The notes: a model not told the origin generated them from the sequence alone. Positions 35,181 to 52,788 are shown, counted from the first letter of the stretch. The stretch is DNA of 64,000 nt from Verrucomicrobiales bacterium (GCA_002726915.1 PBSY01000058.1:52101-116100); one strand, 5' to 3'. Numbers and translations are program-made.

Positions 35181-38100
35181 TCAGGGAACACTAACTTCAA
35201 CAATCACGAAGAGGGGTCCATCGGGCATTGGCGCGCAAATTTCAACGCGTTCCCAATCCTCATCAATGGAGACCACCGTCCCTGCTTCACTCACCGCCAC
35301 GAAACTGCCACTGACCAGCGTGGTGGACGTCTTTGGCGTGTAGGCCAGTCCACTGCCTTTTCGCCTTATATATTGGAGAGTCCAACAAGGCGTATCACCC
35401 ACTTCAGTTTGAAGAAGCGGCAATCCTGATGAACCACCATCGACCATCGTGCGGAGATCCAATGAGTCGAGCTCCATATTGTAGGCATACTTTTCAAGAT
35501 TGGTGACGCTACCTCCATAAGGCGTCGCGCTCGGAAGGGCATCTGATCCGCCTAATCCAGCTGCAGTGGCAACGCCATCAAACAAAATTTGAGCTGTGGC
35601 AACGGTAAATGTTCTGGAAACATTCTCAGCGGGAACATGACGTTGGCTTCCCGCCTGCGAAGCTGCCACCGTGACAGTTCCAGAACCCGTAAATCTCAAT
35701 ATATTTGAGCTGTCGATCGTGGCTGGGCCGCTGGTAATCGCAAAGGTAACCGGGTTCCCCGATCCACCTCCCGTCGCTGAAAGAGCGAAGGTATTACTTA
35801 GTGCCTGATTAGGAATAGCCGGAAACGTAATGACTTGCGGTAGAGGTATGCTCTGAAAGGAAATTTCATCCACCCAGCCACTATCAGAGCCCACCGAGAG
35901 CTGACCATTCTTAAAGTATTCCCAACGAAGAGAGTGGTTCCCCTCTGGAATCGCATAGGAGTACTGGGTCCAGTCGATTTCCCCTGTAATACTGGTAATT
36001 GCGGTGCCATCAAGAGAAAAGATCAGTCCATCGATCCCTGCTTCAGAAGACACCTTCCACCAGAAATTAACCGTATCGGGACCAACGACATCAAAATCGA
36101 AATATGAAATTTCTCCATCGTTCACATCGCCGCTTTGAGCGGCGTCCACTCCGTCGTGTGTCGTGGTCGTCTCATAAAACCAGGAAGGACTTCCTGTCGA
36201 AACCGGTAATTCCATATCAAGTGCTTCCCCTAGATTACTAATAACGATGGAAACAGCCTGAGTATCGGATCCACTGGCATTCGTTGCTGTCACAGAGACG
36301 TTTGTTGTCGAGAAACCAGTTGGGGTTCCGGAAATTAATCCCGTAGACGTATTCAAACTTAAGCCAGCCGACAACGTTCCGCTGGAAAACGAGGTCGCAG
36401 GTTGTGATGTCTGAATCTGGTAGAAAAAAGGAACTCCTACCTTACCAAAAACTTCGGATGCACTGGTAATGAACGGGCGAAAGTCAGACGATAAAAGAGC
36501 AACATCATCAAGCCATCCTGCGTCGCTACCCGCCGAAACATACTGATCCTTATCAAATTCCCACCGCAAGGCATGGGTGCCGGATGGTAACTCATGAACG
36601 ACCCGTTCCCAGCCAACTTCGCCAGCAATGGCTGCTATTTCAGTGCCATCGACTTTAAATCTAAGATAATCATAGTTCGCTTCAGAGGACACCTTCCACT
36701 GAAAAGCGATCGTGTCTGGCCCTTCGACTGAAAAATCAAGGAACGTGATCTCCTCATCACTTGCGTTCCCACTCTGGGCTGCGTCCACACCATCAAACGT
36801 GGTGGTGGTCTGTCGAAACCATTGCGGGTCACTGGTAAACGGATCGACACTCGAATTATCGATTGCGTCAGACAATTGGCCCGTCGTCGCTAGTACGATC
36901 TGATCCACCCAGGCAGTATCCGAGCCGACACTAATCACCGGATCTTTTTCATAGACCCATCGCATCGTATGGACTCCTGCCGCTACCTCATAATTCACCT
37001 CACGCCAGTCTTCTTCTCCAGAAACCGAACGGACCTCAACACCATCATCTAGCAAACGAAGAACATCGATTCCGCTTTCGGACGAGACTTTCCACCAGAA
37101 CGTGAGGGTGTCAGGACCTGCAATGGGAATTTCAAACCAAGTGGATTCACCATCATCGACATCACCACTCTGAGCAGCATCGACGCCATCGTAGGTCATC
37201 TCTGTCTGAATGAACCAAGGAATCGGCCCGGAAGTAATCGTTAGCCCGGTATCGAGTGCGCTACTCATGCCAACAGGGTCCTGTATTTCAACAGTCAAAA
37301 TTTGCTCTGCCGTACCAGTCGTATTCGTGGCTCCAATCGTGACAGTAAAAGTCCCCACCTCAGTCGGAGTACCCGATAAAATTCCCGTTGCGGTATCTAA
37401 ACTCAATCCGGCCGGCAACGCTCCTGCAATAGAGAATGAAGCAGCCGAATGGGTTGTTTCAATCTGATGACTGAACAGTTTTTCTTTAATGCCGGTCACC
37501 AAGGCTCTGCTGATAATTACCGGTCGCAAATCTTCACTGTCGAGAGAGATCAGGTCCACCCACGAAGCGTCACTGCCATTAACCACGCTCATATCTTTTT
37601 CATAACTCCAGCGAATTAGGTGGGTTCCGGCAGGAACTGTGTAGGCGGACGCTTCCCAGTCCTGCTCTCCCGATATCTGAGCTACCGTCGTGCCATCATC
37701 CTTTAAGCGCAGATAGTCAAAGCCAAGCTCGGAGGAGACCTTCCACCAGAATCGAAGCGTGTCAGGACCATCAACAGTGAGCTCAAACCATGTCGCCTCA
37801 CTGTCATCAATCGCCCCACTCTGCGCCGCGTCAACGCCGTCAAGTGTCACCTCAGCCTGAAGAAACCAAGGAGGATTTCCATTTTGAATTGGAAGCCCGG
37901 TATCGAGGGCGTCCTTGATAGGATCATCGGAAACTTCGATTACAAGTGTCTTAGTATTGGTGCCTGCCGGATTCGTCGCTGAGATCGATACGCTGACACT
38001 CTCTGAAATTGAGGGGGTCCAATTGATCACTCCCGTAGTGGTGTCAATTGTCATCCCGGGCGGCACAGTTCCACCCAAAGCAAAAGAGCGGGGCACATTC

Positions 38101-40538
38101 TGGGCCGTGATCTGGTAAAGAAAGTTTCGTCCTGCGATACCTTGAGCCGTGAGAGGGCTGCTAATTACGGGAGGAGCGAACTCGTCGGTCAGGATCGTCC
38201 CAATTCCTTCGCCATCAAGAATAATGGCATTGAATGGACTGCTCAAGACGACAGAAAAAGCCTCGTCGTCTTCTACGTCAGTTTCCCCAATTACCGGAAC
38301 TGTAATTGTTTTTGATACCTCACCAGTGGCAAATGAAAGCGTCCCAGAAACTCCAGTAAAGTCGGCCGGCGCTGAGGCCGTAGCGTCGAAGGTGGTGTAG
38401 TCGACCGAAGTCACCTCCGCAGCTTCGGCACTTAGAGTTACGGTGAATACAGCATCAGTCGTTCCGCTGTCTCCCTCAGTAACCGTCACGTCATTGATTG
38501 AGAACTGTTCGTCTGGCAGATCAAAGGCTTCTGTCACAGTGAGGCTATTAGGGTCGCCACTATCACTTGCTGAAAAGCCCATGCCCCGCTTGGCAAAGGC
38601 CTGCCAGATCAAGTCGCTGTTGACTCCACCATTGTTGACTTGATCCGCTAGAAGAATCGCATCGCGTGCTTCAAGATAAGTCGGAGTCGCTGGTTGCAGC
38701 TTTAAGCCGTCCATGACCAACTGGAGCGCTATGTTATTTCCGCCGGAACCTTGGTAGATGTCTGAGTCGAATCCATGAAAATCCACGAGCTTCCAGTACA
38801 TCTCCCAGAGAATTGAACACCATACAAATCCGATGCCATGAGGAACACTCAGACCCGAAGGAAGGTCTCCATAGGTGTATTCGTTGACCGACAAATCAGT
38901 CGTGTATGGACGCGGACGAATTCCGCTGCCGGTGGCAGGCTGACCCAACACATAATGGCCAACCGAACGACTCAAGTCTGAGGGTTGGCCCGGTTTGGCC
39001 GTTAAGGCGAGCCCCCACCAATCACTCCAGCCTTCACCCATCCCCCGGCTTTGGCTTGCCGAGAGAGCACTGGAATTCGCGGCACCACCGGTCAGGCGGT
39101 TGGAGACCCCGTGGCCATATTCATGGATGATGATGACGTTATCGAGATCACTATCGCGGTTCGGAGTCGTATTCGTCCAAACAAACATCTGCATGCGAGG
39201 ATTAGAACCGTCAGGCGGGGTCCCAAAATTAGCATTATTCGTGCCTGAACCATCCTGAGCATCAGCCTCGACCGGATCAGAACCAGCCCCGCCATTACCG
39301 TAATTATTTTCCTGAAAATTGCCGGCCGCCTCGTCGAATCCATACTGGTAGTGGATATCATGCAGAATATTATTCCAGTAGAAGAGGTTAGTGATGGCGC
39401 CGTCGAGATAAGTTGAGGGCTCCTCAGTAAGATCCAACGGATTGTCAAAATTCAGCGTGACCCCCCCTTCGGGTCGGCCTCCTCCCGAATTATTAGCATC
39501 GGTGTCATCCTGTGCATTAACATTATTACCTCTCGTATCAGAGAACTCAGCACCGCTGATACCGTCTGTGTCATGCCAACCAAATGGAGATGCCGAAGCG
39601 TCCTCAGGACCGACCACCAATTGCCTCCCTCCATCTAGGGGAGTTTCGTTAGGGAAAGGAAAGACGCGATAATTCGCGTGAGCATACCAGTTTGAACGGC
39701 TCAAAATATCACCAGACTCGGCATCGATATTCACATCCATCCATCGAGCACTGTCCGGTAAGTGAATGACCGCATTCCAAACGAGGCGAGTAGTTTCCTC
39801 TGCTTGCGGCAGATACATCAATTTTGCTGGGATGGGATCCTGTGAAATCCCTCCTCCTTCAAACACCATTGCCTGCTCAGGCCCCTTCGCCATCTGCCTT
39901 ACAGCTAGCATTTCATCCGAGCGGACCACTCCCAGATCAGCGGCTGCCAACTGGATAGCTTTTACCGCATCGATCTGCGGGTCCCTAATATTGATTTCAG
40001 AGTCCAAGTCACGGACAAAACGATTGTGGAGACTAAGTATTGTCCCGTTAGGCCCGACGTTCGCACTGGCATCTCCGTTGTAGACCTCGATCCCTCCAAT
40101 TCGCTGACGAAAATAGAGATGAGTAATTCCATTATGGCGGCTTACTGATTGTGAGTTCAGAACAACATCATCAAAATCGTTCAGCGTGTAGCCTTTTTCT
40201 GAATCGCGTTCCCGCATCCACCTAATGACAGACTCCCACGAATCTTCAGCGGCGCTGACCTCGCCCGGGCCTGAAGCGTAATTCACCAGCCCTCCCGCAT
40301 TCAGCACCTCTCGGGTACGCGGTCTAAGATAGGTGTTACCGACTTCCAGCTGGCGAGGTCTCAAGCGTTCCGCTAAGGCTTGAACCCTGTCACGACGGGA
40401 TGCTGATGGTGGAGGATCTGATACTACTCCGGTCTCCGAATCCGCTTTTTCTTCCCTTTCAGACAACGGCCGTATGACAACAACTGAGATCAGAAGCAGG
40501 AGTACAAAAAATGAGGATAGCAACGCTGCCGGTCTCAT
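35181..40538 (-). CDS. M36 (fungalysin-like) metallopeptidase with Calx-beta, putative Ig and four WKVSS-type repeats
   Basis: 'VIIHEYGHGVSNRLTGG' (HExxH at 39111-39125); Calx-beta-like 'FSINDVTVTEGDSGTTDAVFTVTLS'; He_PIG-like 'PAGLSLDTATGILSGTPTEVGTFTVTIGATN'. Confidence 0.88.
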   Translation of the reverse strand: MRPAALLSSFFVLLLLISVVVIRPLSEREEKADSETGVVSDPPPSASRRDRVQALAERLRPRQLEVGNTYLRPRTREVLNAGGLVNYASGPGEVSAAEDSWESVIRWMRERDSEKGYTLNDFDDVVLNSQSVSRHNGITHLYFRQRIGGIEVYNGDASANVGPNGTILSLHNRFVRDLDSEINIRDPQIDAVKAIQLAAADLGVVRSDEMLAVRQMAKGPEQAMVFEGGGISQDPIPAKLMYLPQAEETTRLVWNAVIHLPDSARWMDVNIDAESGDILSRSNWYAHANYRVFPFPNETPLDGGRQLVVGPEDASASPFGWHDTDGISGAEFSDTRGNNVNAQDDTDANNSGGGRPEGGVTLNFDNPLDLTEEPSTYLDGAITNLFYWNNILHDIHYQYGFDEAAGNFQENNYGNGGAGSDPVEADAQDGSGTNNANFGTPPDGSNPRMQMFVWTNTTPNRDSDLDNVIIIHEYGHGVSNRLTGGAANSSALSASQSRGMGEGWSDWWGLALTAKPGQPSDLSRSVGHYVLGQPATGSGIRPRPYTTDLSVNEYTYGDLPSGLSVPHGIGFVWCSILWEMYWKLVDFHGFDSDIYQGSGGNNIALQLVMDGLKLQPATPTYLEARDAILLADQVNNGGVNSDLIWQAFAKRGMGFSASDSGDPNSLTVTEAFDLPDEQFSINDVTVTEGDSGTTDAVFTVTLSAEAAEVTSVDYTTFDATASAPADFTGVSGTLSFATGEVSKTITVPVIGETDVEDDEAFSVVLSSPFNAIILDGEGIGTILTDEFAPPVISSPLTAQGIAGRNFLYQITAQNVPRSFALGGTVPPGMTIDTTTGVINWTPSISESVSVSISATNPAGTNTKTLVIEVSDDPIKDALDTGLPIQNGNPPWFLQAEVTLDGVDAAQSGAIDDSEATWFELTVDGPDTLRFWWKVSSELGFDYLRLKDDGTTVAQISGEQDWEASAYTVPAGTHLIRWSYEKDMSVVNGSDASWVDLISLDSEDLRPVIISRALVTGIKEKLFSHQIETTHSAASFSIAGALPAGLSLDTATGILSGTPTEVGTFTVTIGATNTTGTAEQILTVEIQDPVGMSSALDTGLTITSGPIPWFIQTEMTYDGVDAAQSGDVDDGESTWFEIPIAGPDTLTFWWKVSSESGIDVLRLLDDGVEVRSVSGEEDWREVNYEVAAGVHTMRWVYEKDPVISVGSDTAWVDQIVLATTGQLSDAIDNSSVDPFTSDPQWFRQTTTTFDGVDAAQSGNASDEEITFLDFSVEGPDTIAFQWKVSSEANYDYLRFKVDGTEIAAIAGEVGWERVVHELPSGTHALRWEFDKDQYVSAGSDAGWLDDVALLSSDFRPFITSASEVFGKVGVPFFYQIQTSQPATSFSSGTLSAGLSLNTSTGLISGTPTGFSTTNVSVTATNASGSDTQAVSIVISNLGEALDMELPVSTGSPSWFYETTTTHDGVDAAQSGDVNDGEISYFDFDVVGPDTVNFWWKVSSEAGIDGLIFSLDGTAITSITGEIDWTQYSYAIPEGNHSLRWEYFKNGQLSVGSDSGWVDEISFQSIPLPQVITFPAIPNQALSNTFALSATGGGSGNPVTFAITSGPATIDSSNILRFTGSGTVTVAASQAGSQRHVPAENVSRTFTVATAQILFDGVATAAGLGGSDALPSATPYGGSVTNLEKYAYNMELDSLDLRTMVDGGSSGLPLLQTEVGDTPCWTLQYIRRKGSGLAYTPKTSTTLVSGSFVAVSEAGTVVSIDEDWERVEICAPMPDGPLFVIVEVSVP
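35845..37905 (-). repeat. Four ~120-aa protein repeats ('DGVDAAQSG...GPDT..FWWKVSS...GSD..WVD')
   Basis: Copies centred near 36.1, 36.75, 37.15 and 37.8 kb; three share 'DGVDAAQSG' plus 'GPDT(L/V).FWWKVSS' and one has 'GPDTIAFQWKVSS'. Confidence 0.85.
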
Positions 40539-41626: not shown

Positions 41627-42361
41627 TTACTTCTTAAGCGTGATATTACGCCAGGCGACTTTCTTGCCGATTTTCTGCTTGTTCTTGCCAATACCGTGCA
41701 ACTGCAGCGCGACGTAGCCACTTGCGGTGAGATCGTCTTTAACATCTGCCGTTTGAACTCCATTGAGCCAAACTTGGAAACGGTCACCATTGGCAATGAT
41801 CTTGAAGTGGTTCCATTCGCCCTGCCTGAGAGAGCCGTCAGGCGCCTTGGCGTCATCCGGTGAGTGCAGGAAGCCACGGCCACCCTCCTCGTAAAGCGTG
41901 CCTGACCACGCTCGCTCCGAAGGGTCAATTTCAATTTGGTAACCCCAGAACCGGTCTTTTTCCCAGACCTTCTCGATGATGTCCTTGCTGCCGTCTTCCT
42001 TGAACCTTCCACCCCAACGCATAGTCGTGGTTTCTTCCGGGTAGGTCTTGCTGCGAATCTGAATACCAGAATTCAGCAACGGGTCGACTTTGAATTCCAC
42101 TTCGAGTTCGAAGTCACCATACATTTCGTTGGTGGCCAGAAAGCTATTCGGCAAGCCCGGCGCCGCCTCACCCACAATGGTTCCGTCTTCCACATAAAAG
42201 TTTCCACCGCCAAAATTCTGCCAACCATTCAGGGTTTCACCGTCGAACAAATCAACCGCTTCAGCTGCTACATTCCCACTTCCCAACTCAGCATTCGTAG
42301 GCGGCGAGCACGAAACCAAGAGAGCAAAAAAAAGAACAAGAAGATGTTTTAAGTATTTCAT
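41627..42361 (-). CDS. DUF1080 lipoprotein
   Basis: Start at MKYLKHLLVLFFALLVSCSPP (lipobox LVSC); 'VDLFDGETLNGWQNFGGGNFYVEDGTIVGEA'. Confidence 0.9.
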   Translation of the reverse strand: MKYLKHLLVLFFALLVSCSPPTNAELGSGNVAAEAVDLFDGETLNGWQNFGGGNFYVEDGTIVGEAAPGLPNSFLATNEMYGDFELEVEFKVDPLLNSGIQIRSKTYPEETTTMRWGGRFKEDGSKDIIEKVWEKDRFWGYQIEIDPSERAWSGTLYEEGGRGFLHSPDDAKAPDGSLRQGEWNHFKIIANGDRFQVWLNGVQTADVKDDLTASGYVALQLHGIGKNKQKIGKKVAWRNITLKK

Positions 42362-42445
42362 AAGATTATTGATCAAAGATAGAGGGCGCTCCCGCAATGT
42401 AAAAATACGGAAAAGAGACAATCCATAGTAGCGCTCAGACACCAA

Positions 42446-44014
42446 TCAATCGATGACGTGCCAGCGCGCGCTTTCCGAGACCGTGAATGATCCCATCAAC
42501 TTGTCAACCATGTGACGCCGAAGGCGCTCCAATTCATTGCGCTGAGCCTCGTCAGGTAGCTCCATCAGAAACAGCGGCCACTGTGGCTGACCCCAGTAGG
42601 TCTCTTCGTAGACCGCACCTTCTTTCTCCACCAATAAAATTCCCGAGGTCAACTTTCCTGCTACCTCTCCAAACAGTATATCCAACTGCACCGGACCATC
42701 ATTAATCTCCACCCACGGCCCCGAAGCAAATCCAGCTCTGGCGTTAAGGCAAGGCCACGCCGGGTAATTTTCCCGCGCCACCGGCATCACCTCGCGGAGA
42801 TCTGAGTCATAACGTGAACCATCGAAAACGGTCTTTCCGTTCACGGCCACGAGCAGATTGTTATCCGCATACCCCCAAAAGCGATAACGCCCTGACTGAG
42901 GCGGCTTTACCTGCCCTTGATACCAGATCAACCAACCTGATTCATTGATCACACGCGATGACACTCCCAGCCGAGGTGCAAACTTGTTGTAGGTACCGGC
43001 AACTCCAGCAAAACGAAGAGGCGCACTCCGGTCCATCCCTTTAAGGCAGGAGAAATCCTTGAATCCGGACTCGATCAGTGGCGCAAAGCACTGCCCCATC
43101 ACATCCACTTTAGAACGAATTGGCTGCTCCGGCAGCAAATGATCGTTAGGCAGAGAATATAGATGCCCAACAAGAGAACCCTCCGTCGGCACCAAAGCCC
43201 CCATCTCAAGTTCCGGCACCCCACTTGGCCCTTTCGAGGGCATCCGGGTATCGCCCTCGCGATCGAATTTCGCCAATTCACCAGCGGTCATAAAACTTTC
43301 CCCAACTTTTCCGCGGCCATCAAGCGAGATCAGCCCGTCGAGGACAAAGACTTGCGATCCTAGCGGCTCTGCGCTTACGACAAAACTCGTTCCCAAGTCC
43401 GTGATCTTGCGCTCCCGAGTTTCCACTACAAAACCAATCCCCTGCGGCGGCACATGAAGCTTCAAATCACCACGGCTTAGAAAAACTTGGTCAGCTGTTT
43501 GCACGGTCAACGACAACGGCGCTGTGGCAATGGCATGCACCCCGCTATCCCGAAAGACCAGTTCAACAATCCCCCTTTTCATGGTAAGGCGGTCCCCTTC
43601 CCTCAACGAGCCTCCAGAGGAAAGTTCAGCGCTTTCATTCACTTTGCCATCGCCATCAATGCGCAGCACCGAAGCGACACCGAGGTCGGCCGGCGCCCGG
43701 GATTGTCCTCCATTTCTGAACCAACCAAAAATTCCGAGAGCCAACGCAGCGGCCACTGCCCCGGTAAGCCACGCTCGCTGACGAAAAGGCTCAACCCGCA
43801 AGGAACCGGAATCATCATCAAAGTTAGAACTGCGGCCCATATCGGCAGCAGCTTCCTCGAGGTAGGCATCTGCTTTGAGTGCCCGCCTGAGATTCCTACG
43901 ACTATCGATTGCCTCATCCTGGCGGAGGTGCTGCGACAACTCCTCCGCTTCTTCTTCGGAAAGTTGGTCAAGCACGTAGCCCTGAATCAATTCTTCCAAT
44001 CGTTCTGTTTTCAT
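42446..44014 (-). CDS. FecR-domain anti-sigma factor with C-terminal PA14/lectin-like region
   Basis: N-terminal anti-sigma-like helix 'LEELIQGYVLDQLSEEEAEELSQHLRQDE', TM 'AWLTGAVAAALALGIFGWF', FecR-like 'GDLKLHVPPQGIGFVVETRERKITDLGTSFVV', PA14-like 'SGWLIWYQGQVKPPQSGRYRFWGYADNNLLVAVNGKTVFDG'; ATGA overlap with sigma gene. Confidence 0.85.
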   Translation of the reverse strand: MKTERLEELIQGYVLDQLSEEEAEELSQHLRQDEAIDSRRNLRRALKADAYLEEAAADMGRSSNFDDDSGSLRVEPFRQRAWLTGAVAAALALGIFGWFRNGGQSRAPADLGVASVLRIDGDGKVNESAELSSGGSLREGDRLTMKRGIVELVFRDSGVHAIATAPLSLTVQTADQVFLSRGDLKLHVPPQGIGFVVETRERKITDLGTSFVVSAEPLGSQVFVLDGLISLDGRGKVGESFMTAGELAKFDREGDTRMPSKGPSGVPELEMGALVPTEGSLVGHLYSLPNDHLLPEQPIRSKVDVMGQCFAPLIESGFKDFSCLKGMDRSAPLRFAGVAGTYNKFAPRLGVSSRVINESGWLIWYQGQVKPPQSGRYRFWGYADNNLLVAVNGKTVFDGSRYDSDLREVMPVARENYPAWPCLNARAGFASGPWVEINDGPVQLDILFGEVAGKLTSGILLVEKEGAVYEETYWGQPQWPLFLMELPDEAQRNELERLRRHMVDKLMGSFTVSESARWHVID

Positions 44015-44556
44015 AGTCCGGCAGGCTCGGATTTTAGTTCGGTTTCAACGCAGCGCATCAACTTGACGCGAAGACGCTGTAGTAATTTATAAAGACTGTT
44101 GGGAGATCGGGTCGACTGCGCCGCCATCTCCTTAACCGCACCGGGACCGCTGTAGGGAGCGAGAATGAGACGCTTGCGTTCGTCGGGTAATTTACTGAGG
44201 CAGGTCATCAAGGCGGCATACTCACGGGACAACTGATCGCCGCCCTTCTCCTCCGCATCTTCCTCGACAAGAATGCGCTCGACCAGTTCATCATCGAATA
44301 CATGCCGATCACGCACCAGCTTGCGGCGATGGCGAAAACTAATATTTCGAACGATCGTTTTAGCCCAGGGCAAGAACTCGTCGTAATGACGCAGCTGATC
44401 CTGTTTTTCCCAGATCACCACGCTGGCCTCCTGCATCACATCGTCTATGGGATTGACCGATGGCAGAATCAACCGCGAATAGGCTCGCAACTCCCGCGTG
44501 TGGCGAGCGAAAAGCTGCAACAACTGGCTGCCCTTCTCCTGACTTTGATCCCTCAT
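44011..44556 (-). CDS. ECF-type sigma-70 factor (TIGR02989-like Rhodopirellula/Verrucomicrobium family)
   Basis: Region 2 'LILPSVNPIDDVMQEASVVIWEKQDQL...FLPWAKTIVRNISFRHRRK'; region 4 'LPDERKRLILAPYSGPGAVKEMAAQSTRSPNSLYKLLQRLRVKLMRCVE'. Confidence 0.92.
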   Translation of the reverse strand: MRDQSQEKGSQLLQLFARHTRELRAYSRLILPSVNPIDDVMQEASVVIWEKQDQLRHYDEFLPWAKTIVRNISFRHRRKLVRDRHVFDDELVERILVEEDAEEKGGDQLSREYAALMTCLSKLPDERKRLILAPYSGPGAVKEMAAQSTRSPNSLYKLLQRLRVKLMRCVETELKSEPAGL

Positions 44557-44563
44557 TTTATTT

Positions 44564-44590
44564 ATATCTCACTTCGTCGTCGATTCTGCC
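44564..44590 (-). promoter_or_regulatory. Putative ECF promoter copy A (sigma factor gene)
   Basis: GGCAGAATC-GACGACGAAGT-GAGATAT on the minus strand, 7 nt before ATG 44556. Confidence 0.8.
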
Positions 44591-44658
44591 ATCTTTTTGG
44601 CAAAAATCGCCTCAAAGACTGGCCGTCCTGAATTCCTATCTTTGCTGCCGAAAAAATT

Positions 44659-44685
44659 GGCAGAATCAACTTTTGTTTGAGATAT
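44659..44685 (+). promoter_or_regulatory. Putative ECF promoter copy B (sulfatase)
   Basis: GGCAGAATC-AACTTTTGTTT-GAGATAT, 13 nt before ATG 44699. Confidence 0.85.
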
Positions 44686-44698
44686 AAGCGCTAGACGC

Positions 44699-46129
44699 AT
44701 GAAACCCTTTTTTAAAATCCCCATCCTACTGACCGTTCTCTGGACCTGCGCAAGCTATGCGACCGACCAGCCCAATATCATCGTACTGCTCGCCGATGAC
44801 CTCGGCTACGGGGAACTGAGCTGCCAAGGAAGTAGGGACATCCCCACGCCTCACATCGATGCGATCGCCGCCAACGGTGTGCGCTTCACCGACGCCTATG
44901 TCGCCGGCCCTAACTGCAGCCCCTCGCGGGCCGGCTTCCTCACCGGACGCACTCCGACGCGTTTTGGCTATGAGTTCAATCCCATTGGGGCGGTGAACGA
45001 AGAACCCGGAATCGGCATGCCTGCTGCAGAAGTCACCATCGCCGAAGCTCTTCATAATGGTGGCTACACCACCGGCCTGATCGGAAAATGGCACCAGGGA
45101 GGCACCGCTCACTATCATCCGTTCCGTCACGGTTTTGATGAGTTCTTTGGTTTCACTCACGAAGGTCACTATTTCGTTCCCCCACCCTGGGACGGCACAA
45201 CGACCTTGCTTCGACGCAAGTTCCTTCCCGGCGGACCGACCGAGTCGGGCTATTATTACGGCGACAAGAAACTCCATTTCCACAATCTCCTGGGCAACGA
45301 ACCCGACTACGATGCGAACAACCCCATCGTCCGGGGTGGCCAGCCCGTTGTCGAAACCGAGTATCTCACCGACGCTCTCACCCGCGAGGCGGCCGACTTC
45401 ATTGATCGTCACGACGACAAACCATTCTTTCTCTTTCTTTCCTACAATGCGGTGCACAGCCCGCTCCAGGGAGCCAACGCCTACATGGAGAAATTTGCCC
45501 ACATCGAAGACATGCATCGTCGCATCTTCGCCGCCATGCTCGCGAACATGGATGACAGCGTTGGAGCTGTAATGGATCAACTCCGCAAGTCAGGCCTCGA
45601 AGAGGATACGCTGGTATTCTTCCTCAGTGACAACGGAGGCCCTACCCTCGAGCTCACGTCTTCCAACGGAGTCCTACGCGGGCAGAAAGGCCAGATGTAT
45701 GAGGGTGGTGTTCGCGTGCCCTTCGTCATGCAGTGGAAAGGCACCATTCCTCCGGGGCAAGTTTACGAAAACCCCATCAGCTCCTTCGACATCTTTGCCA
45801 CCGCCGCCGCCAACGCCGAACACGTCACCGCGCCCAAGCAGCTCGAAGGCGCGGATCTGATCCCCTACCTCACCGGCGAGAAAGAAGGCAGCCCTCACGA
45901 AACACTGTATTGGCGTCAGGGTGGTAAAGCCGGCCTTCGCCATGGTGACTGGAAGATCGTCCGCATGGGCAAAAGAAACGAATTTGGCAAATCCAAATGG
46001 GAACTCTACGACCTCTCCAAGGACATCTCGGAAGAAAACAATCTCGCCCAATCCAACCCGGAACGGCTCAAAGAATTGATTGGGATCTGGGAAACGATGA
46101 ACGACGAAATGAGCGAGCCTTTGTTTTAG
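44699..46129 (+). CDS. Sulfatase (CSPSR motif)
   Basis: 'QPNIIVLLADDLGYGELSCQGSRDIPTPHIDAIAANG...NCSPSRAGFLTGRTPTRFG'. Confidence 0.95.
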   Translation: MKPFFKIPILLTVLWTCASYATDQPNIIVLLADDLGYGELSCQGSRDIPTPHIDAIAANGVRFTDAYVAGPNCSPSRAGFLTGRTPTRFGYEFNPIGAVNEEPGIGMPAAEVTIAEALHNGGYTTGLIGKWHQGGTAHYHPFRHGFDEFFGFTHEGHYFVPPPWDGTTTLLRRKFLPGGPTESGYYYGDKKLHFHNLLGNEPDYDANNPIVRGGQPVVETEYLTDALTREAADFIDRHDDKPFFLFLSYNAVHSPLQGANAYMEKFAHIEDMHRRIFAAMLANMDDSVGAVMDQLRKSGLEEDTLVFFLSDNGGPTLELTSSNGVLRGQKGQMYEGGVRVPFVMQWKGTIPPGQVYENPISSFDIFATAAANAEHVTAPKQLEGADLIPYLTGEKEGSPHETLYWRQGGKAGLRHGDWKIVRMGKRNEFGKSKWELYDLSKDISEENNLAQSNPERLKELIGIWETMNDEMSEPLF

Positions 46130-46205
46130 GACTCAGGCTCAGAGTGGGCAAATTCCCTGTTCCAGCTTCACTTACCCTAAAGACCCCTTCTAAAACCCAT
46201 TCCCC

Positions 46206-47687
46206 ATGAATCCTATCAAAACCCTAATCCTCACTCTCACCTGTCTCATTGGGTCTGCGGTTCACGCCACGCAACCCAACATTATTTTCATCTTTATCGA
46301 TGACATGGGCTGGGGTGATCTCGGCTGCTACGGCAATGACTTCATTGATACACCTCGTCTCGACCAGCTCGCCAGTGAAGGAATGCGTTTCACCGATGCC
46401 TACGCTGCCGGTGCCGTCTGCTCACCGACACGTTGTGCAGTTCAATCCGGGCAGAACCAGACCCGCATCGGCATCACAGCTCACATCCCCGGCCACTGGC
46501 GTCCCTTTGAGAAAGTCACCAATCCACAGACCACCATGGCTTTGCCACTCGATACTATTACTGTGGCCGAGCAGATAAAAGAATCGGGCTACACCACCGG
46601 CTACGTCGGAAAGTGGCACCTCGGCAGGGACCCTCAGTTCGGCCCCGGTCATCAGGGCTACGACTACGACCTCGAAATCAACGGCGCCCATCTGCCCGGC
46701 AAGTACAAGGTCGCCAGCAATTCGACGCAGACCCTGAAGCCCAGGCCCGATCAATTCCGCACCGACTTTGAAGCCGAGGCCTGCGAACACTTCATTCGCG
46801 AGAACAAAGACAATCCCTTCTTCCTTATGCTCTCCCCCTACGCGGTTCATATCCCTCTCGCGAGTAAAGCGTCCCTGGTCGAGAAATACCGCGCCCGCGC
46901 CGCCGAGCACAAACGCGAACTGCCCAACCCCATCTACGCCGCTATGGTCGAAGAAGTAGACGCCCTTGTTGGGCGACTTGTCGACGAAGTCGAAGCCCAG
47001 GGACTGACCAACAAAACCATGATCGTTTTTACGTCCGATAACGGAGGTCTCTATCGCCGCTACGACTACACCGAGGCGGCTGATGACAACGTGTCCAATC
47101 TAGCTCCGCTCAAGGGTGAGAAAGGCGCCCTCACCGAAGGCGGTATCCGCGTGCCGCTCATCGTCAAGTATCCGCGTGAAATCGCCGCCGGCAGCACCAG
47201 CCCCGAACCGGTCATCAGCTATGATTTCTATCCGACCTTCATTGCCGCCGCTGGGGGCAAAATGCCTGAGCATCAGACCATTGACGGCTATGACCTCCTC
47301 CCTGTCCTAACGGAACAAAATGGAAAGCTCAATCGCAATGCTATCCACTGGCACTACCCCCACTATCACCATGACCGCCCTGCCAGTGCCATTCGCGAAC
47401 GCGACTGGAAACTCATCGAATACCTCGACGGCACCGGTGACCTCGAGATCTATCACCTCGCCCGGGACATCGGCGAAGAGAACAACCTCATCGAAGAGCG
47501 CAAAGGCAAAGCCGCCGACTTGAAGAAGAAGCTCGCCAACTGGCGAATCTCAGTCAGCGCACGTGTTCCGATTCACAATCCCAACTACGACCCCGAGCGG
47601 GCCCACGAATGGTGGAGCCTGAGAACCGGGCAACCTCTCGACAGCTCAGCTCGCAAGCGCTTCCCGCAGACGGAAAAGGACCTTTAA
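46206..47687 (+). CDS. Sulfatase (CSPTR motif)
   Basis: 'QPNIIFIFIDDMGWGDLGCYGNDFIDTPRLDQLASEG...VCSPTRCAVQSGQNQTRIG'. Confidence 0.94.
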   Translation: MNPIKTLILTLTCLIGSAVHATQPNIIFIFIDDMGWGDLGCYGNDFIDTPRLDQLASEGMRFTDAYAAGAVCSPTRCAVQSGQNQTRIGITAHIPGHWRPFEKVTNPQTTMALPLDTITVAEQIKESGYTTGYVGKWHLGRDPQFGPGHQGYDYDLEINGAHLPGKYKVASNSTQTLKPRPDQFRTDFEAEACEHFIRENKDNPFFLMLSPYAVHIPLASKASLVEKYRARAAEHKRELPNPIYAAMVEEVDALVGRLVDEVEAQGLTNKTMIVFTSDNGGLYRRYDYTEAADDNVSNLAPLKGEKGALTEGGIRVPLIVKYPREIAAGSTSPEPVISYDFYPTFIAAAGGKMPEHQTIDGYDLLPVLTEQNGKLNRNAIHWHYPHYHHDRPASAIRERDWKLIEYLDGTGDLEIYHLARDIGEENNLIEERKGKAADLKKKLANWRISVSARVPIHNPNYDPERAHEWWSLRTGQPLDSSARKRFPQTEKDL

Positions 47688-47900
47688 CCGGGGGCGCTCT
47701 TAATTGGGGTCTAATAGACCAAAGAGCGGAGGAAAATAGTTCCCATACCAGAAGGTCGGTGCCCACTGGTAGGTGACCCGGACATCCATCCGGGGGCGAT
47801 TGCGAGCCATCTGGAAACCCCAGGCGGCCACTTCGCCTGATTTCACGCCGAGATCTTTCAACGGGATCGCCAGTCAGAAGACTAGCATTCACGCTCCCAC

Positions 47901-49310
47901 CTATCGTGTCTCGTCGATCAAAAAGGCTTTCGCCTGCGGCGAATAAGGATCTCCCCAGCCGTAGAACAGTAACATGCCGGGAACAATCTCACCCCCGGGC
48001 TTCGTTACGGGCTGGACGTTGTTGAAACGCCAACCGGAGAACTTCGAGACCGTCGGCGTGAGGTCGCGTTCTCGCTGCCACGTTTCCCCTTGATCGGAAG
48101 AGCACCACTCTTCGATGCGCCCTCCTCCGTGGCTGTCCATCAGTCCATCGGATTCCAAATACCCGTCTCCCACCACGAGAAAGGCAACGAGCGAACCATC
48201 TTTCTCTCTCCTCAGGTGGCCGCTGTTCCACTGATGCGTGGATTCAGTGATGAAGACCTTTTTCCATCGGTCCCCATCATGGAACACATAGAAGTAATTC
48301 GCCTCCTGCTTGGAATCATCTCCTGACAGCACATGGAGAAAAGCTGGATCGCCCTTCTCATCCAGCAAGATACTGGGCGGGACTCCGGAACCCCGCCATT
48401 CGGTGTCCCAAATGAGACAGTTCTCATCAGCGTAATCCACATCCATTGGCGCCTTCATGGTTTCGCCCTCGAAGTTCGTAACTGCCCCGGAAGCCAGGTC
48501 GACCTGGCAGTAGTAGAGATTGTATTTCCACTCCTGCCCCGTCTTCTCGCGGTAGCGTGGATTGTAGAATCGATCCGACATGGCCCGGTCAGGATCTTCG
48601 AATTTGCAGTCGTCATAAACGATGAACGCGACGTGAAGAGTTTTGCCATCCGAGCTCAACAACTTCGTCTGGTAAGAGGACCACTCAAAACGCCCTGCCA
48701 CATCCATATCCGTCACCGCCTTTTCGGGTGTCGCCCACGTTTCTCCATCATCCTCAGTCACGCTGTAAGTCCAAAATCCAAAATGCCCGAGGACCCGATA
48801 GTAGATCATCTCCTTGCCCCCCTCGATGTTGTAGACCGCGGGATAGGAAATACTCTCGCCAATCTGCGCCCCCTCTCTCCAGTCATCGAAACTCTCGCCA
48901 ATTGAACCCGGAGTCTTTGAAATTAGATGCGTTCCCGGTGTTCGATGACAGCCAGACAGCACATGGAGATGCCCGGAGTCGTCCGCCCAGATCACCGGAC
49001 CATAGTGATGATCCTTGCTCCGTTCTCCCAAGGTCACCGTCTTCGAAAATGAACGCGTCTTCGTATCGTAAGTCGTTGCCATAGGGGCGGTTCTGAAACT
49101 GGGATCCTTGCCACCCTTACCCCCTCCGTTGAATACCAGGTGCACCTTGCCATCCAGATACACCGCCTGGGGGCGTTGCCGTCGATCATAGAGCATCTTT
49201 TTCTGCCCACCTTTGCCAAAAGCCATCGGCTCCGATCGATCAGTGAATTCTGCCTGAGCAGAACTAAACACCCCAGCAAAAATGAACCAGACACACACGA
49301 AACGAATCAT
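47901..49310 (-). CDS. BNR-repeat (BNR_4-like) secreted protein
   Basis: 'RRQRPQAVYLDGKVHLVFNGGGKGGKD...HHYGPVIWADDSGHLHVLSGCHRTPGTHL'; signal peptide. Confidence 0.78.
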   Translation of the reverse strand: MIRFVCVWFIFAGVFSSAQAEFTDRSEPMAFGKGGQKKMLYDRRQRPQAVYLDGKVHLVFNGGGKGGKDPSFRTAPMATTYDTKTRSFSKTVTLGERSKDHHYGPVIWADDSGHLHVLSGCHRTPGTHLISKTPGSIGESFDDWREGAQIGESISYPAVYNIEGGKEMIYYRVLGHFGFWTYSVTEDDGETWATPEKAVTDMDVAGRFEWSSYQTKLLSSDGKTLHVAFIVYDDCKFEDPDRAMSDRFYNPRYREKTGQEWKYNLYYCQVDLASGAVTNFEGETMKAPMDVDYADENCLIWDTEWRGSGVPPSILLDEKGDPAFLHVLSGDDSKQEANYFYVFHDGDRWKKVFITESTHQWNSGHLRREKDGSLVAFLVVGDGYLESDGLMDSHGGGRIEEWCSSDQGETWQRERDLTPTVSKFSGWRFNNVQPVTKPGGEIVPGMLLFYGWGDPYSPQAKAFLIDETR

Positions 49311-49402
49311 GGGAGGAGTCTACAAGCATTCACCGCGTCCGATGAAGCTTAGCTAGCTCCACAATCGCGGTATGAATCGGGTTCAACGAATCACGAAAGT
49401 TC

Positions 49403-49429
49403 GGCAGAATCCTGCTCCGTCTGCGATAT
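49403..49429 (+). promoter_or_regulatory. Putative ECF promoter copy C (DUF1080/LamG-like gene)
   Basis: GGCAGAATC-CTGCTCCGTCT-GCGATAT, 13 nt before ATG 49443. Confidence 0.8.
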
Positions 49430-49442
49430 GTTGCATAACCCC

Positions 49443-50129
49443 ATGAAACCCGTCCTATCTCTCGTTCTGCTTATCTTCGTCTGCCACTCAGCCCACGCTC
49501 TGGAAAAGCACGACAAAGCCCCCATCGAAGGCCACGAAACCTTCGATACCTACAAGCCCGAGATCCACACCCAGTTTCCCGAGAAAAATTCCGAAGTCCG
49601 CGACGGCGTTCTATGGACGCGGGGTGAAAGCGGCCAGAAGTATCCGCCCACCGTAGCATTCCCGGTTCAACTCATCGACGGCACCTTCTCCTTCCGCTTC
49701 CGCCATCTCGGAGACGGCAACATGTTCTGGCTCTTCATCAACGGAGACGACGGGTTCGGCGGCTTCGACCACGTTTTGCGTGTCAAAGTCACTCGCAAGG
49801 CCATTTCCCTCCAAGTGGATGCCCACACCATGGATCCCAAAGGTCCCAACGTGCAGCCCGGGCGCAAACCGGGTGCTACCAGCGGCGCCTACCGGGCACC
49901 TGAGCAACTCAAACCCGAAACAGTTGAGGGTCTCAACGACGATGACTGGCACGAATTGGAACTCAACTTTGAAGGCGACACCGTAGAAATTTCACTGGAC
50001 GGGCGCCACTGGAAGACGGAACTGAGTCGCCCTGGCTTTGCCTTCGAGAAGCAGGAGTTCTTCCTTTTCATCGATGGCGGCGAAGCCGGAATGGAGTTCG
50101 ATGATCTCAAAATCACACCGGCTACCTGA
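49443..50129 (+). CDS. DUF1080/LamG-like secreted protein
   Basis: Start at MKPVLSLVLLIFVCHSAHA (track start 49428 overlaps the promoter); 'DGTFSFRFRHLGDGNMFWLFINGDD...WHELELNFEGDTVEISLDGRHWKTE'. Confidence 0.75.
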   Translation: MKPVLSLVLLIFVCHSAHALEKHDKAPIEGHETFDTYKPEIHTQFPEKNSEVRDGVLWTRGESGQKYPPTVAFPVQLIDGTFSFRFRHLGDGNMFWLFINGDDGFGGFDHVLRVKVTRKAISLQVDAHTMDPKGPNVQPGRKPGATSGAYRAPEQLKPETVEGLNDDDWHELELNFEGDTVEISLDGRHWKTELSRPGFAFEKQEFFLFIDGGEAGMEFDDLKITPAT

Positions 50130-50151
50130 GTTTCCTTTGGCGAAAAAAGTC

Positions 50152-50178
50152 GGCAGAATCAATCTCTCCTCGAGATAT
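50152..50178 (+). promoter_or_regulatory. Putative ECF promoter copy D (PVC-type cytochrome c gene)
   Basis: GGCAGAATC-AATCTCTCCTC-GAGATAT, 27 nt before ATG 50206. Confidence 0.85.
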
Positions 50179-50205: not shown

Positions 50206-52788
50206 ATGAAAAAACTCTTTCTCATCCTCGCGGCAGCCTTCGCCATTACTCCGCTGACAAAGGCTCAGCGCACCGCCACCCCGCCCGATAAAATTGCACT
50301 CTTGGAAGGCTTTGAGGCCGAGTTGCTCTATACCGTCCCACGTGACATCCAAGGTTCGTGGGTGGCCATGTGCCAAGACGATAAAGGGCGGCTTATCGTC
50401 AGCGACCAGTATGGCGGCATCTACCGTTTCCCTATCCCGAAACTCGGCGAACGGCTCGACTCCTCTGCTATCCAGCAGATCACCTATTCGACCGAGGGAG
50501 CCCCCAAGCGCGGCGATCACGATGGCACTGACCCTCAGGAACTCAACGCCGAACTCGCCAAACTGCCTAAGGTGGGTCACGCCCAAGGACTCTGCTACGC
50601 CTTCGACAGTCTCTACGTTGTGGTGAATTCGCGCAACAGTTCCTCCGGCACTGGAGTCTTTCGATTGCTCGACACCGATAACGATGACCAGTTTGACAAA
50701 TTAGTCACCATCAAGACGCTCGGAGAGACAGCGGGTGAGCACGGTCCGCATGCCATCTTTCCTACCGCCGACGGCGAGGGACTCTACGTCGTCATGGGTA
50801 ACCAAACACAACTGCCCGAGGACTACACCCACGCCCGCACGCCGGAAGTCTGGGGTGAAGATCAGCTCCTTCCCTCTCTGCAACATTTCATGCGCGGTGC
50901 CGAAGCTCCGCTGGGCCACGTGGCACGAATTGACCCTGAGGGCAAAACCTGGGACGTGGTCGCCACAGGATTCCGGAACCAGTACGACGCTGCTCTAAGC
51001 CGAGAGGGAGAAATGTTTACCTACGATGCCGATATGGAGTGGGACCTTAACACACCATGGTATCGCCCTACCCGCGTTAACCATGTTATCGATGGCGCTG
51101 ACTACGGCTGGCGCACCGGATCCGGCAAATTTATGGACTACTGCACCGACACCTTCGGAGCAGTGATCGACATCGGTCCGGGTTCCCCGACCGGAGTTTG
51201 TTTTGGCTACGGAGCCAAGTTTCCGGCCAAGTATCAGAACGCCTTCTTCGCCGCCGACTGGTCTTACGGAAAACTCTACGCCGTTCACCTTAAGCCTCAG
51301 GGCTCCAGCTACTCTGCGACTTTCGAGGAGTTCGCTGCTGCCCAGCCGCTGCCATTGACTGACCTCCTCATCAATGAAACCGACGGCGCGATGTATTTCA
51401 CCGTTGGTGGTCGCCGGGTTCAGTCCGGACTCTACCGAATCACTTACACTGGCGATGAGTCCACCGCTCCAGCCGAAACTGTCCACGGAGGAGAAGAAGC
51501 AAGGGCTGAGCGTCATGAGCTCGAAGCTTTTCTCCAGGCCGGGGCCAAGGAAGCAACAACCGAAGAACTCGATACAATCTGGAACGCTCTTGGCTCTTCC
51601 GATCGAGGCATCCGTCACGCCGCTCGCGCAGCCCTTGAAAAGCAGCCTGCCGCCAACTGGAAAGATCGGGTGATCGGTGAAGACGATGCTGTTATCACCA
51701 CGGCCGCGCTCATTGCCCTTGCCCGCGTGGATGCTGAGAACTCCGCCGCCGCCATTCTCTCTAAGGCCACCAGCTTTGACTACTCATCCACAAAATCCCG
51801 CCAAACCCGACTCGACATTCTTCGCGGTATCATGCTGACCCTGACTCGCAGCGGTGAACCCACAGATGGCCAGAAAGCCAAGCTCATCGAATGGCTCGAT
51901 GGAGTTTATCCTGCCAAAACACCCGAAGAGAATCGTGATCTCTCCGCCTTTGCCGCCTTTCTTGAAGCCCCTTTCGCCGTCGATCGCGGTATGGAACTGC
52001 TCGCCAATGCTTCCGGCCAGGAAGAACAGATCGGCTACGCCCTCAACCTGCGTTATCTCAAGGATGGCTGGACCCCGGAACTACGTGAGAAATATTTCAG
52101 GTGGTTTGTTATGGCCGGCAATTACAGGGGGGGTGCCCGCCTCGCCAACTACCTGGCCGATATTAAGAAACATGCCACTGAAACGGTGCCTGAGAGTGAC
52201 ATGACTGCTGCGCTCACCGAGATCATCAATACCTCGCCCAAAGATTCCACGCCTCAGTTCACCCTCAAGCCCCGTTCCTTCGTCAAGAACTGGACGATGG
52301 AAGATCTCTCTGGTGATCTTGGAGTCGGCCTCGAAGGCAACCGCGACTTCGCCAACGGTCGCCAGATGTTCGGCGCTGGCACTTGCTACGTCTGCCACCG
52401 CTTTAATGGCGAAGGAGGTGCCGTTGGACCCGACCTTTCCTCCGCAGGCGGCAAGTTCAGCCCCTACGACTTGCTCGAAACAATCGTCGATCCGGGCGCA
52501 GAAATTAGCGACCAGTATGGAAGCAGTATTTTCACACTTGATGACGGCACTCAGGTGATCGGTCGTATCATGAACATGAGCGGTGACCACTACCAGGTGA
52601 ATACCAACATGATGAATCCAAGCAGCGCCGCCAAGGTGGACGCGAATGCGATCACTTCGATCGAACCATCTCCTGTCTCCATGATGCCACCCGGCCTGAT
52701 CAACATGATGGAACGCGATGACATCCTCGATTTACTCGCCTACCTCATCTCCGGCGGTGATTCTGATCACGAGCTGTTTGCCAACTAA
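50206..52788 (+). CDS. PVC-type c-type cytochrome / membrane-bound dehydrogenase-like beta-propeller protein
   Basis: Start at MKKLFLILAAAFAITPLTKAQ; propeller and HEAT-like middle; 'GAGTCYVCHRFNGEGGAVGPDLSSAGGKFSPYDLLETIVDPGAEISDQY' (CxxCH). Confidence 0.88.
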   Translation: MKKLFLILAAAFAITPLTKAQRTATPPDKIALLEGFEAELLYTVPRDIQGSWVAMCQDDKGRLIVSDQYGGIYRFPIPKLGERLDSSAIQQITYSTEGAPKRGDHDGTDPQELNAELAKLPKVGHAQGLCYAFDSLYVVVNSRNSSSGTGVFRLLDTDNDDQFDKLVTIKTLGETAGEHGPHAIFPTADGEGLYVVMGNQTQLPEDYTHARTPEVWGEDQLLPSLQHFMRGAEAPLGHVARIDPEGKTWDVVATGFRNQYDAALSREGEMFTYDADMEWDLNTPWYRPTRVNHVIDGADYGWRTGSGKFMDYCTDTFGAVIDIGPGSPTGVCFGYGAKFPAKYQNAFFAADWSYGKLYAVHLKPQGSSYSATFEEFAAAQPLPLTDLLINETDGAMYFTVGGRRVQSGLYRITYTGDESTAPAETVHGGEEARAERHELEAFLQAGAKEATTEELDTIWNALGSSDRGIRHAARAALEKQPAANWKDRVIGEDDAVITTAALIALARVDAENSAAAILSKATSFDYSSTKSRQTRLDILRGIMLTLTRSGEPTDGQKAKLIEWLDGVYPAKTPEENRDLSAFAAFLEAPFAVDRGMELLANASGQEEQIGYALNLRYLKDGWTPELREKYFRWFVMAGNYRGGARLANYLADIKKHATETVPESDMTAALTEIINTSPKDSTPQFTLKPRSFVKNWTMEDLSGDLGVGLEGNRDFANGRQMFGAGTCYVCHRFNGEGGAVGPDLSSAGGKFSPYDLLETIVDPGAEISDQYGSSIFTLDDGTQVIGRIMNMSGDHYQVNTNMMNPSSAAKVDANAITSIEPSPVSMMPPGLINMMERDDILDLLAYLISGGDSDHELFAN

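Follow-up and report, generated by a model that had tools for sequence, protein, structure and literature searches.

Related sigma factor systems

Several described systems bear on the locus analyzed here, a bipartite promoter motif and the adjacent gene for an extracytoplasmic function (ECF) sigma factor (44011..44556, minus strand) in a 64,000-nt stretch of Verrucomicrobiales bacterium DNA (GCA_002726915.1 PBSY01000058.1:52101-116100; hereafter the window, with coordinates counted from its start). In FecI/FecR-type systems, known from E. coli and from the Leptospira pair LIC12757/LIC12756, the gene after the ECF sigma gene encodes a membrane protein with a FecR domain; the Leptospira FecR-like protein is reported to restrain its sigma factor until an outer signal arrives, and the N-terminus of FecR-domain proteins can act as an anti-sigma factor in such systems (PMC13118517). 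The window has the same gene order, but its sigma factor is apparently strongly autoregulated, which FecI-like systems usually are not (PMC8103513), its targets are sulfatases, and a Pfam scan of the neighborhood found no TonB-dependent receptor with a signaling domain among the ten neighboring genes. The canonical ECF promoter has AAC in the -35 element and CGT in the -10 element, and the promoter code described for ECF sigmas combines positive autoregulation with residue-base covariation (PMC8103513). Both of these features appear to recur at this locus, whereas GGCAGAATC and GATAT, together with an A-tract, stand in place of AAC and CGT. Lacking these two elements and a TonB receptor among its neighbors, the locus is not filed here as a FecI/FecR system proper.

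The closest functional analogue is SigI/RsgI of Clostridium thermocellum, a sigma/anti-sigma pair that senses extracellular polysaccharide, in which each SigI has its own -35/-10 consensus and activates itself along with glycan-degrading genes (PMC4711584); the sigma class is, however, unrelated, RsgI is not a FecR protein, and phylum and enzymes differ. By family, the sigma factor in the window falls with the Sig-70_gvs1 (TIGR02989) ECF sigmas of Rhodopirellula and Verrucomicrobium, scoring above the curated cut-off. For this family no published promoter motif or regulon was found in open-access papers, and an earlier in silico prediction may exist. A preliminary description of the window had proposed that the motif is the -35/-10 pair read by the 44011-44556 sigma, and this proposal gains support from conservation of the motif with the sigma gene, from its fixed positions, and from covariation across the family. 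On this comparative basis we consider it highly probable that the motif is a -35/-10 pair with an A-tract, through which the sigma factor would drive its own operon together with a small regulon for breaking down sulfated glycans.

A bipartite motif in front of four genes

We scanned the window and the whole 3.53 Mb genome, on both strands, for the pattern GGCAGAATC-N11-GNGATAT. All four copies listed in the preliminary description match the pattern exactly, and their orientation toward a start codon 7-27 nt away was likewise confirmed. The copy in front of the sigma gene (44564..44590, minus strand; -35 GGCAGAATC, N11, -10 GAGATAT) ends 7 nt before the ATG; those in front of the first sulfatase gene (sulfatase 1; 44659..44685, plus strand) and a LamG-like gene (49403..49429, plus strand; ATG at 49443) both end 13 nt before theirs, and that in front of a PVC-type cytochrome gene (50152..50178, plus strand; ATG at 50206) ends 27 nt before. 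As had also been noted, an A-rich run lies upstream of all four, at 44591..44604 (minus strand) for the sigma promoter, where it may be an UP-like element, and at 44645..44658 (plus strand) for sulfatase 1, and the four spacers are mutually unrelated. The window holds no further full motif: its three remaining matches have 3 mismatches each, about what shuffled sequence yields (mean 1.8 matches at <=3 mismatches).

Five exact copies are present in the genome, the four in the window and one at C23:22002, against a chance expectation of about 0.007 (arithmetic from 15 fixed bases and 2 x 3.53 Mb), and a reversed control pattern gave zero matches at <=1 mismatch across the same genome. Random scatter, including inside genes, which the preliminary description had named as a refuting outcome, is not seen for the strong sites, but it is seen for the weak 2-mismatch sites, which are mostly intragenic and without an A-run, as expected of background. 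It is extremely improbable that the copies arose by chance or are a dispersed repeat. Repeats can mimic the motif, for a motif-like string with similar spacers occurs in a conserved block upstream of PQQ/BamB-like genes; the unrelated spacers of the window copies, the excess of exact copies, and conservation across two phyla nevertheless refute this explanation for the window sites.

The PQQ/BamB upstream block itself (L065, L009, L059, L283, L289) carries GGCAGA(A/T)TC-N11-G(A/T)GATAT-like strings followed by CGTAGGTTGG, and may be either a further promoter of this kind or a repeat mimicking the motif. Because spacers and flanks are conserved there too, and because this genome's copy has 2 mismatches, these sites were not counted as regulon members.

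ECF promoters usually have about 16 nt between their -35 and -10 elements. Across 30 aligned sites the half-sites are spaced as GGCAGA-N16-GATAT, which is compatible with a -35/-10 pair. A bipartite site over roughly two helical turns would also suit a DNA-binding protein, and the motif could then be the operator of an ordinary regulator carried with the sigma/FecR cassette, a reading that none of the analyses favored. We judge this very unlikely: the two halves are neither repeats nor inverted repeats, orientation and distance to the ATG are fixed with half-sites at -35/-10 spacing, the sigma and FecR genes are the only regulator genes conserved in the cassette, and the motif bases covary with sigma factor residues, as described below.

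Conservation of the motif with the sigma factor

Orthologs of the sigma factor, 71-96% identical, were identified in eleven other genomes. Nine of these are Verrucomicrobia metagenome-assembled genomes (MAGs); the other two belong to Planctomycetota, one being 'Planctomycetes bacterium CA13' and the other a MAG of Fuerstiella in which the contig breaks off within the sigma gene. Comparison of the orthologous promoters, which the preliminary description had suggested as a check, showed that 12/12 sigma genes, in both phyla, have the motif with 0-3 mismatches at 4-9 nt upstream of the start codon. The targets show the same pattern. Sulfatase 1 orthologs carry the motif in four genomes, 13 nt before the start in G011, G014 and G144 and 17 nt in CA13; cytochrome orthologs carry it in five (G011, G144, G007, G005 and G145; 27 nt in G144, L287), and LamG-like orthologs in G144 (13 nt, L271) and, more weakly, G011. 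In relatives, each target keeps its distance from motif to ATG: 13 nt for the sulfatase, 13 nt for the LamG-like gene, 27 nt for the cytochrome, and 22-23 and 23-25 nt for two further sulfatase types, at C34 and C21, that are described in the next section. Within sets of orthologs among the 30 promoters, motif bases are 90-98% identical, versus 35-58% for the 11-nt spacers; in the -35 element six of the nine bases never or hardly ever vary, and in the -10 element GAT is invariant.

The CA13 cassette (L156 2385-10120) encodes a sigma factor 73% identical to the one studied here, with the motif also placed divergently before a DUF1080 gene and before the sulfatase ortholog, an arrangement that suggests transfer between phyla. 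Counted by hand in this genome and six relatives that carry the sigma gene, 15 of 22 matches at <=1 mismatch are found immediately upstream of a start codon, versus 0/7 in genomes without the sigma factor (Fisher p = 0.002).

Further sites in the genome

The predicted regulon is larger than first described, with at least two sulfatase genes outside the window. One, at C34:25697, has the motif with 1 mismatch, a strong A-run and an ATG at +23, and its G144 counterpart has the motif at +22. The other, at C21:5597, is preceded by AAAAAAA-GGCAGAATT-N11-TAGATTT with an ATG at +23; its N-terminus resembles those of sulfatases in G014, G005 and G147, where the motif lies at +23 to +25. Together with the four in the window, this brings the predicted promoters to six. 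Sulfatases stand downstream of three of the five non-sigma promoters. The 3.5 Mb genome has about 150 sulfatase domains, by our estimate roughly one gene in twenty, and chance would not be expected to give such a proportion.

Relics of the sigma gene were seen in C23 and in G011, where the syntenic stretch (C96; L082:9004-9106) holds a decayed copy, 103 bp long, of the promoter and 5' end of the gene. Both sets of relics adjoin a 1030-aa gene, in arrangements that differ between the two species, and look like a decayed copy of the cassette.

A probable promoter pattern in the wider family, with clade-specific dialects

For the wider family, we searched by expectation-maximization for a bipartite motif upstream of gvs1-type sigma genes, using a non-redundant set of 80 from 37 genomes. 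The log-likelihood gain was 449, versus 84-106 in shuffles, and the resulting pattern, A-tract - CGGCARRT - 11 nt - CGGAGTA, occurs in 86% of the 80 upstreams, mostly 7-15 nt before the start, a position that predicts near-leaderless sigma mRNAs. Paralogous sigma genes of the genus mostly have a related A-tract/-35/-10 promoter in the same place, with a separate dialect for each clade: GGCAGAAT/GATAT for the sigma factor studied here, and CGGCAGGT/GGAATAA, GGGCAATT/GGAGTA, CGTTAGGT/GGCAGTG and CGTTAAAT/GGAAA for others. Applied to 83 new upstreams, the trained model held up in the close clade only, with 11 above the 99% control level, versus 0.8 expected. Other sigma genes, too, are often followed by a FecR-like gene, whose product in one case has a LamG domain. 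Glycan genes likewise lie behind other dialects: a search with two of them gave a site directly before three sulfatases and a GH16 gene.

Given this resemblance among paralog promoters and the many TIGR02989-type genes in the genome, the sites might be gvs1-type promoters whose main reader is a paralogous sigma, or several of them, making the regulon part of a wider network. We regard this as unlikely. When the two other dialects were searched in the same genomes, their matches were almost confined to the promoters of the sigma genes themselves and to the glycan genes just named, the remainder being a few intragenic hits. In addition, the GGCAGAA-T/GATAT form accompanies N153/K157/Q160 and an RNISFRHRRK-type helix in the 74-sigma set used for covariation, and in genomes of the genus that lack the ortholog no site lies close to a start.

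In those 74 sigma/promoter pairs, the strongest links are between residue 157 and -35 position 3, where K pairs with G in 48/50 and Q or M with T in 22/23, and between residue 72 and -10 position 6, where E pairs with G in 41/43 and K, I, V or T with A in 23/23. Residues 153 and 160, on the same helix as 157, are linked to -35 positions 6-7. From general ECF sigma structure, we take residue 157 to lie in the recognition helix of region 4.2 and residue 72 in region 2.4. This is the pattern expected if each sigma factor reads the promoter of its own gene, and it points to sigma-DNA contact. In a parsimony test of co-change, residue 157 and -35 position 3 shared 3 branches (p = 1.5e-4), the top result among about 168 columns. 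A simple test of region 2 versus region 4 was not significant (p = 0.2-0.67), and only residue-level associations were used.

Genes of the sigma operon and predicted targets

The sigma factor scores 143.5 bits against TIGR02989 (cut-off 124.55) in a full-length match to positions 2-158 of 158. Its region 2 is matched by PF04542; region 4 has no Pfam match but is spanned by the TIGR02989 match and has a weak match to a solved structure at residues 134-163. Overlapping the sigma gene by 4 nt is the gene for a FecR-like membrane protein, a putative anti-sigma factor and sensor (42446..44014, minus strand), with an N-terminal helical domain, a transmembrane segment at about 81-99 judged by inspection for hydrophobicity, a FecR domain at 172-229 (24.0 bits, cut-off 24), and a weak PA14 match at 364-400. 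The FecR domain is found in 10/10 proteins encoded downstream of sigma orthologs. The next gene (41627..42370, minus strand), for a 3-keto-disaccharide hydrolase (DUF1080; PF06439, 140 bits), is probably the last of the operon.

Of the targets named in the preliminary description, the DUF1080/LamG-like gene at 49443 fits its label only weakly. Sulfatase 1, the core target (44699..46129, plus strand; PF00884, 218 bits), has a CSPSR active-site motif and a signal peptide; sulfatase 2 (46206..47687, plus strand; PF00884, 170 bits) begins 76 nt downstream and is likely co-transcribed. The LamG-like secreted protein (49443..50129, plus strand) matches Laminin_G_2 at 26.4 bits and PF06439 at 19.8 bits, below the cut-off, and is thus weakly LamG-like or 3-keto-disaccharide-hydrolase-like. 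The PVC-type cytochrome c/CxxCH heme-binding protein (50206..52788, plus strand) scores 95.3 bits against TIGR02603 and falls below the cut-off of TIGR02604. In two relatives (G005:C84 and G007:C9; L074, L071), the target cytochrome is apparently fused to a 3-keto-disaccharide-hydrolase-like domain in an open reading frame of 1141 aa. Elsewhere in the window, 35181-40538 (minus strand) encodes a 1785-aa secreted protein that has the metallopeptidase motif HEYGHG and, toward its C-terminus, several segments that are repeated.

Discussion

The best reading of the cassette is as an autoregulated ECF sigma factor paired with a FecR-like anti-sigma factor that would sense extracellular material, probably a sulfated glycan. 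What comparison shows is that the sites exist, that they are conserved along with the sigma gene and at fixed positions, and that residues and bases covary in the family; transcription, anti-sigma activity and the glycan signal we infer. The FecR-like protein would keep the sigma factor at the membrane for as long as its outer domain detects no signal, and a glycan is proposed as that signal because of the targets and the weak PA14 match. Release of the sigma factor would then produce positive feedback and sulfatase secretion, through activation of its own operon (sigma factor, FecR-like membrane protein and 3-keto-disaccharide hydrolase) and of sulfatases 1-2, the LamG-like protein, the PVC-type cytochrome, and the sulfatases at C34:25697 and C21:5597.

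Several observations weigh against this interpretation. The canonical AAC and CGT elements are not present in the 30 aligned sites, which have GGCAGAATC and GATAT instead. The fifth exact copy (C23:22002-22028; L078:9003-9029) is intergenic, with no gene downstream, and lies beside the sigma gene relics. The genome has 20 TIGR02989-type matches, and with so many gvs1-like sigma genes cross-recognition is possible. On the sensor side, the PA14 match (21.2 bits) is below the Pfam cut-off of 24 and PA14 occurs in 3/10 orthologs, and the structure model of the FecR-like protein was poor (predicted local distance difference test score 35 alone, 46 with 10 orthologs) and was not used. As for covariation, the co-change test for residue 72 is weak alone (p = 0.03, not the top column) and a test of pre-set regions is borderline (p = 0.007-0.18 depending on the cut-off), and in view of the borderline region-level tests we treat covariation as supporting evidence, not proof. 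Finally, distant TIGR02989 members among the 83 new upstreams do not share the family motif, and because the motif of the close paralogs fails there, the idea that all gvs1 sigmas share one promoter was rejected.

A different arrangement was seen in distant TIGR02989 sigma genes (L255, L257, L262, L263, L265), in which TGTCCAAA lies about 13 nt before GGACCT, itself 11-12 nt before the start; a different gvs1 subfamily probably uses this promoter type.

More broadly, we lean slightly toward the view that Verrucomicrobiota and some Planctomycetota use a large family of sigma/FecR sensor cassettes that are nearly orthogonal to one another, with private dialects set by a few residues, 157 and 160 (region 4.2) and 72 (region 2.4). 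Each would be wired to a set of sulfatase or glycan-degradation genes through near-leaderless promoters, and would be mobile between phyla together with its sensor, promoter and targets. How such bacteria choose among sulfatases on algal or mucin-like glycans is apparently little described. If each sigma factor does follow such a promoter code, the sulfatase regulons of uncultured Verrucomicrobiota and Planctomycetota could be predicted from their sequences, and the family would be a source of orthogonal sigma/promoter pairs.

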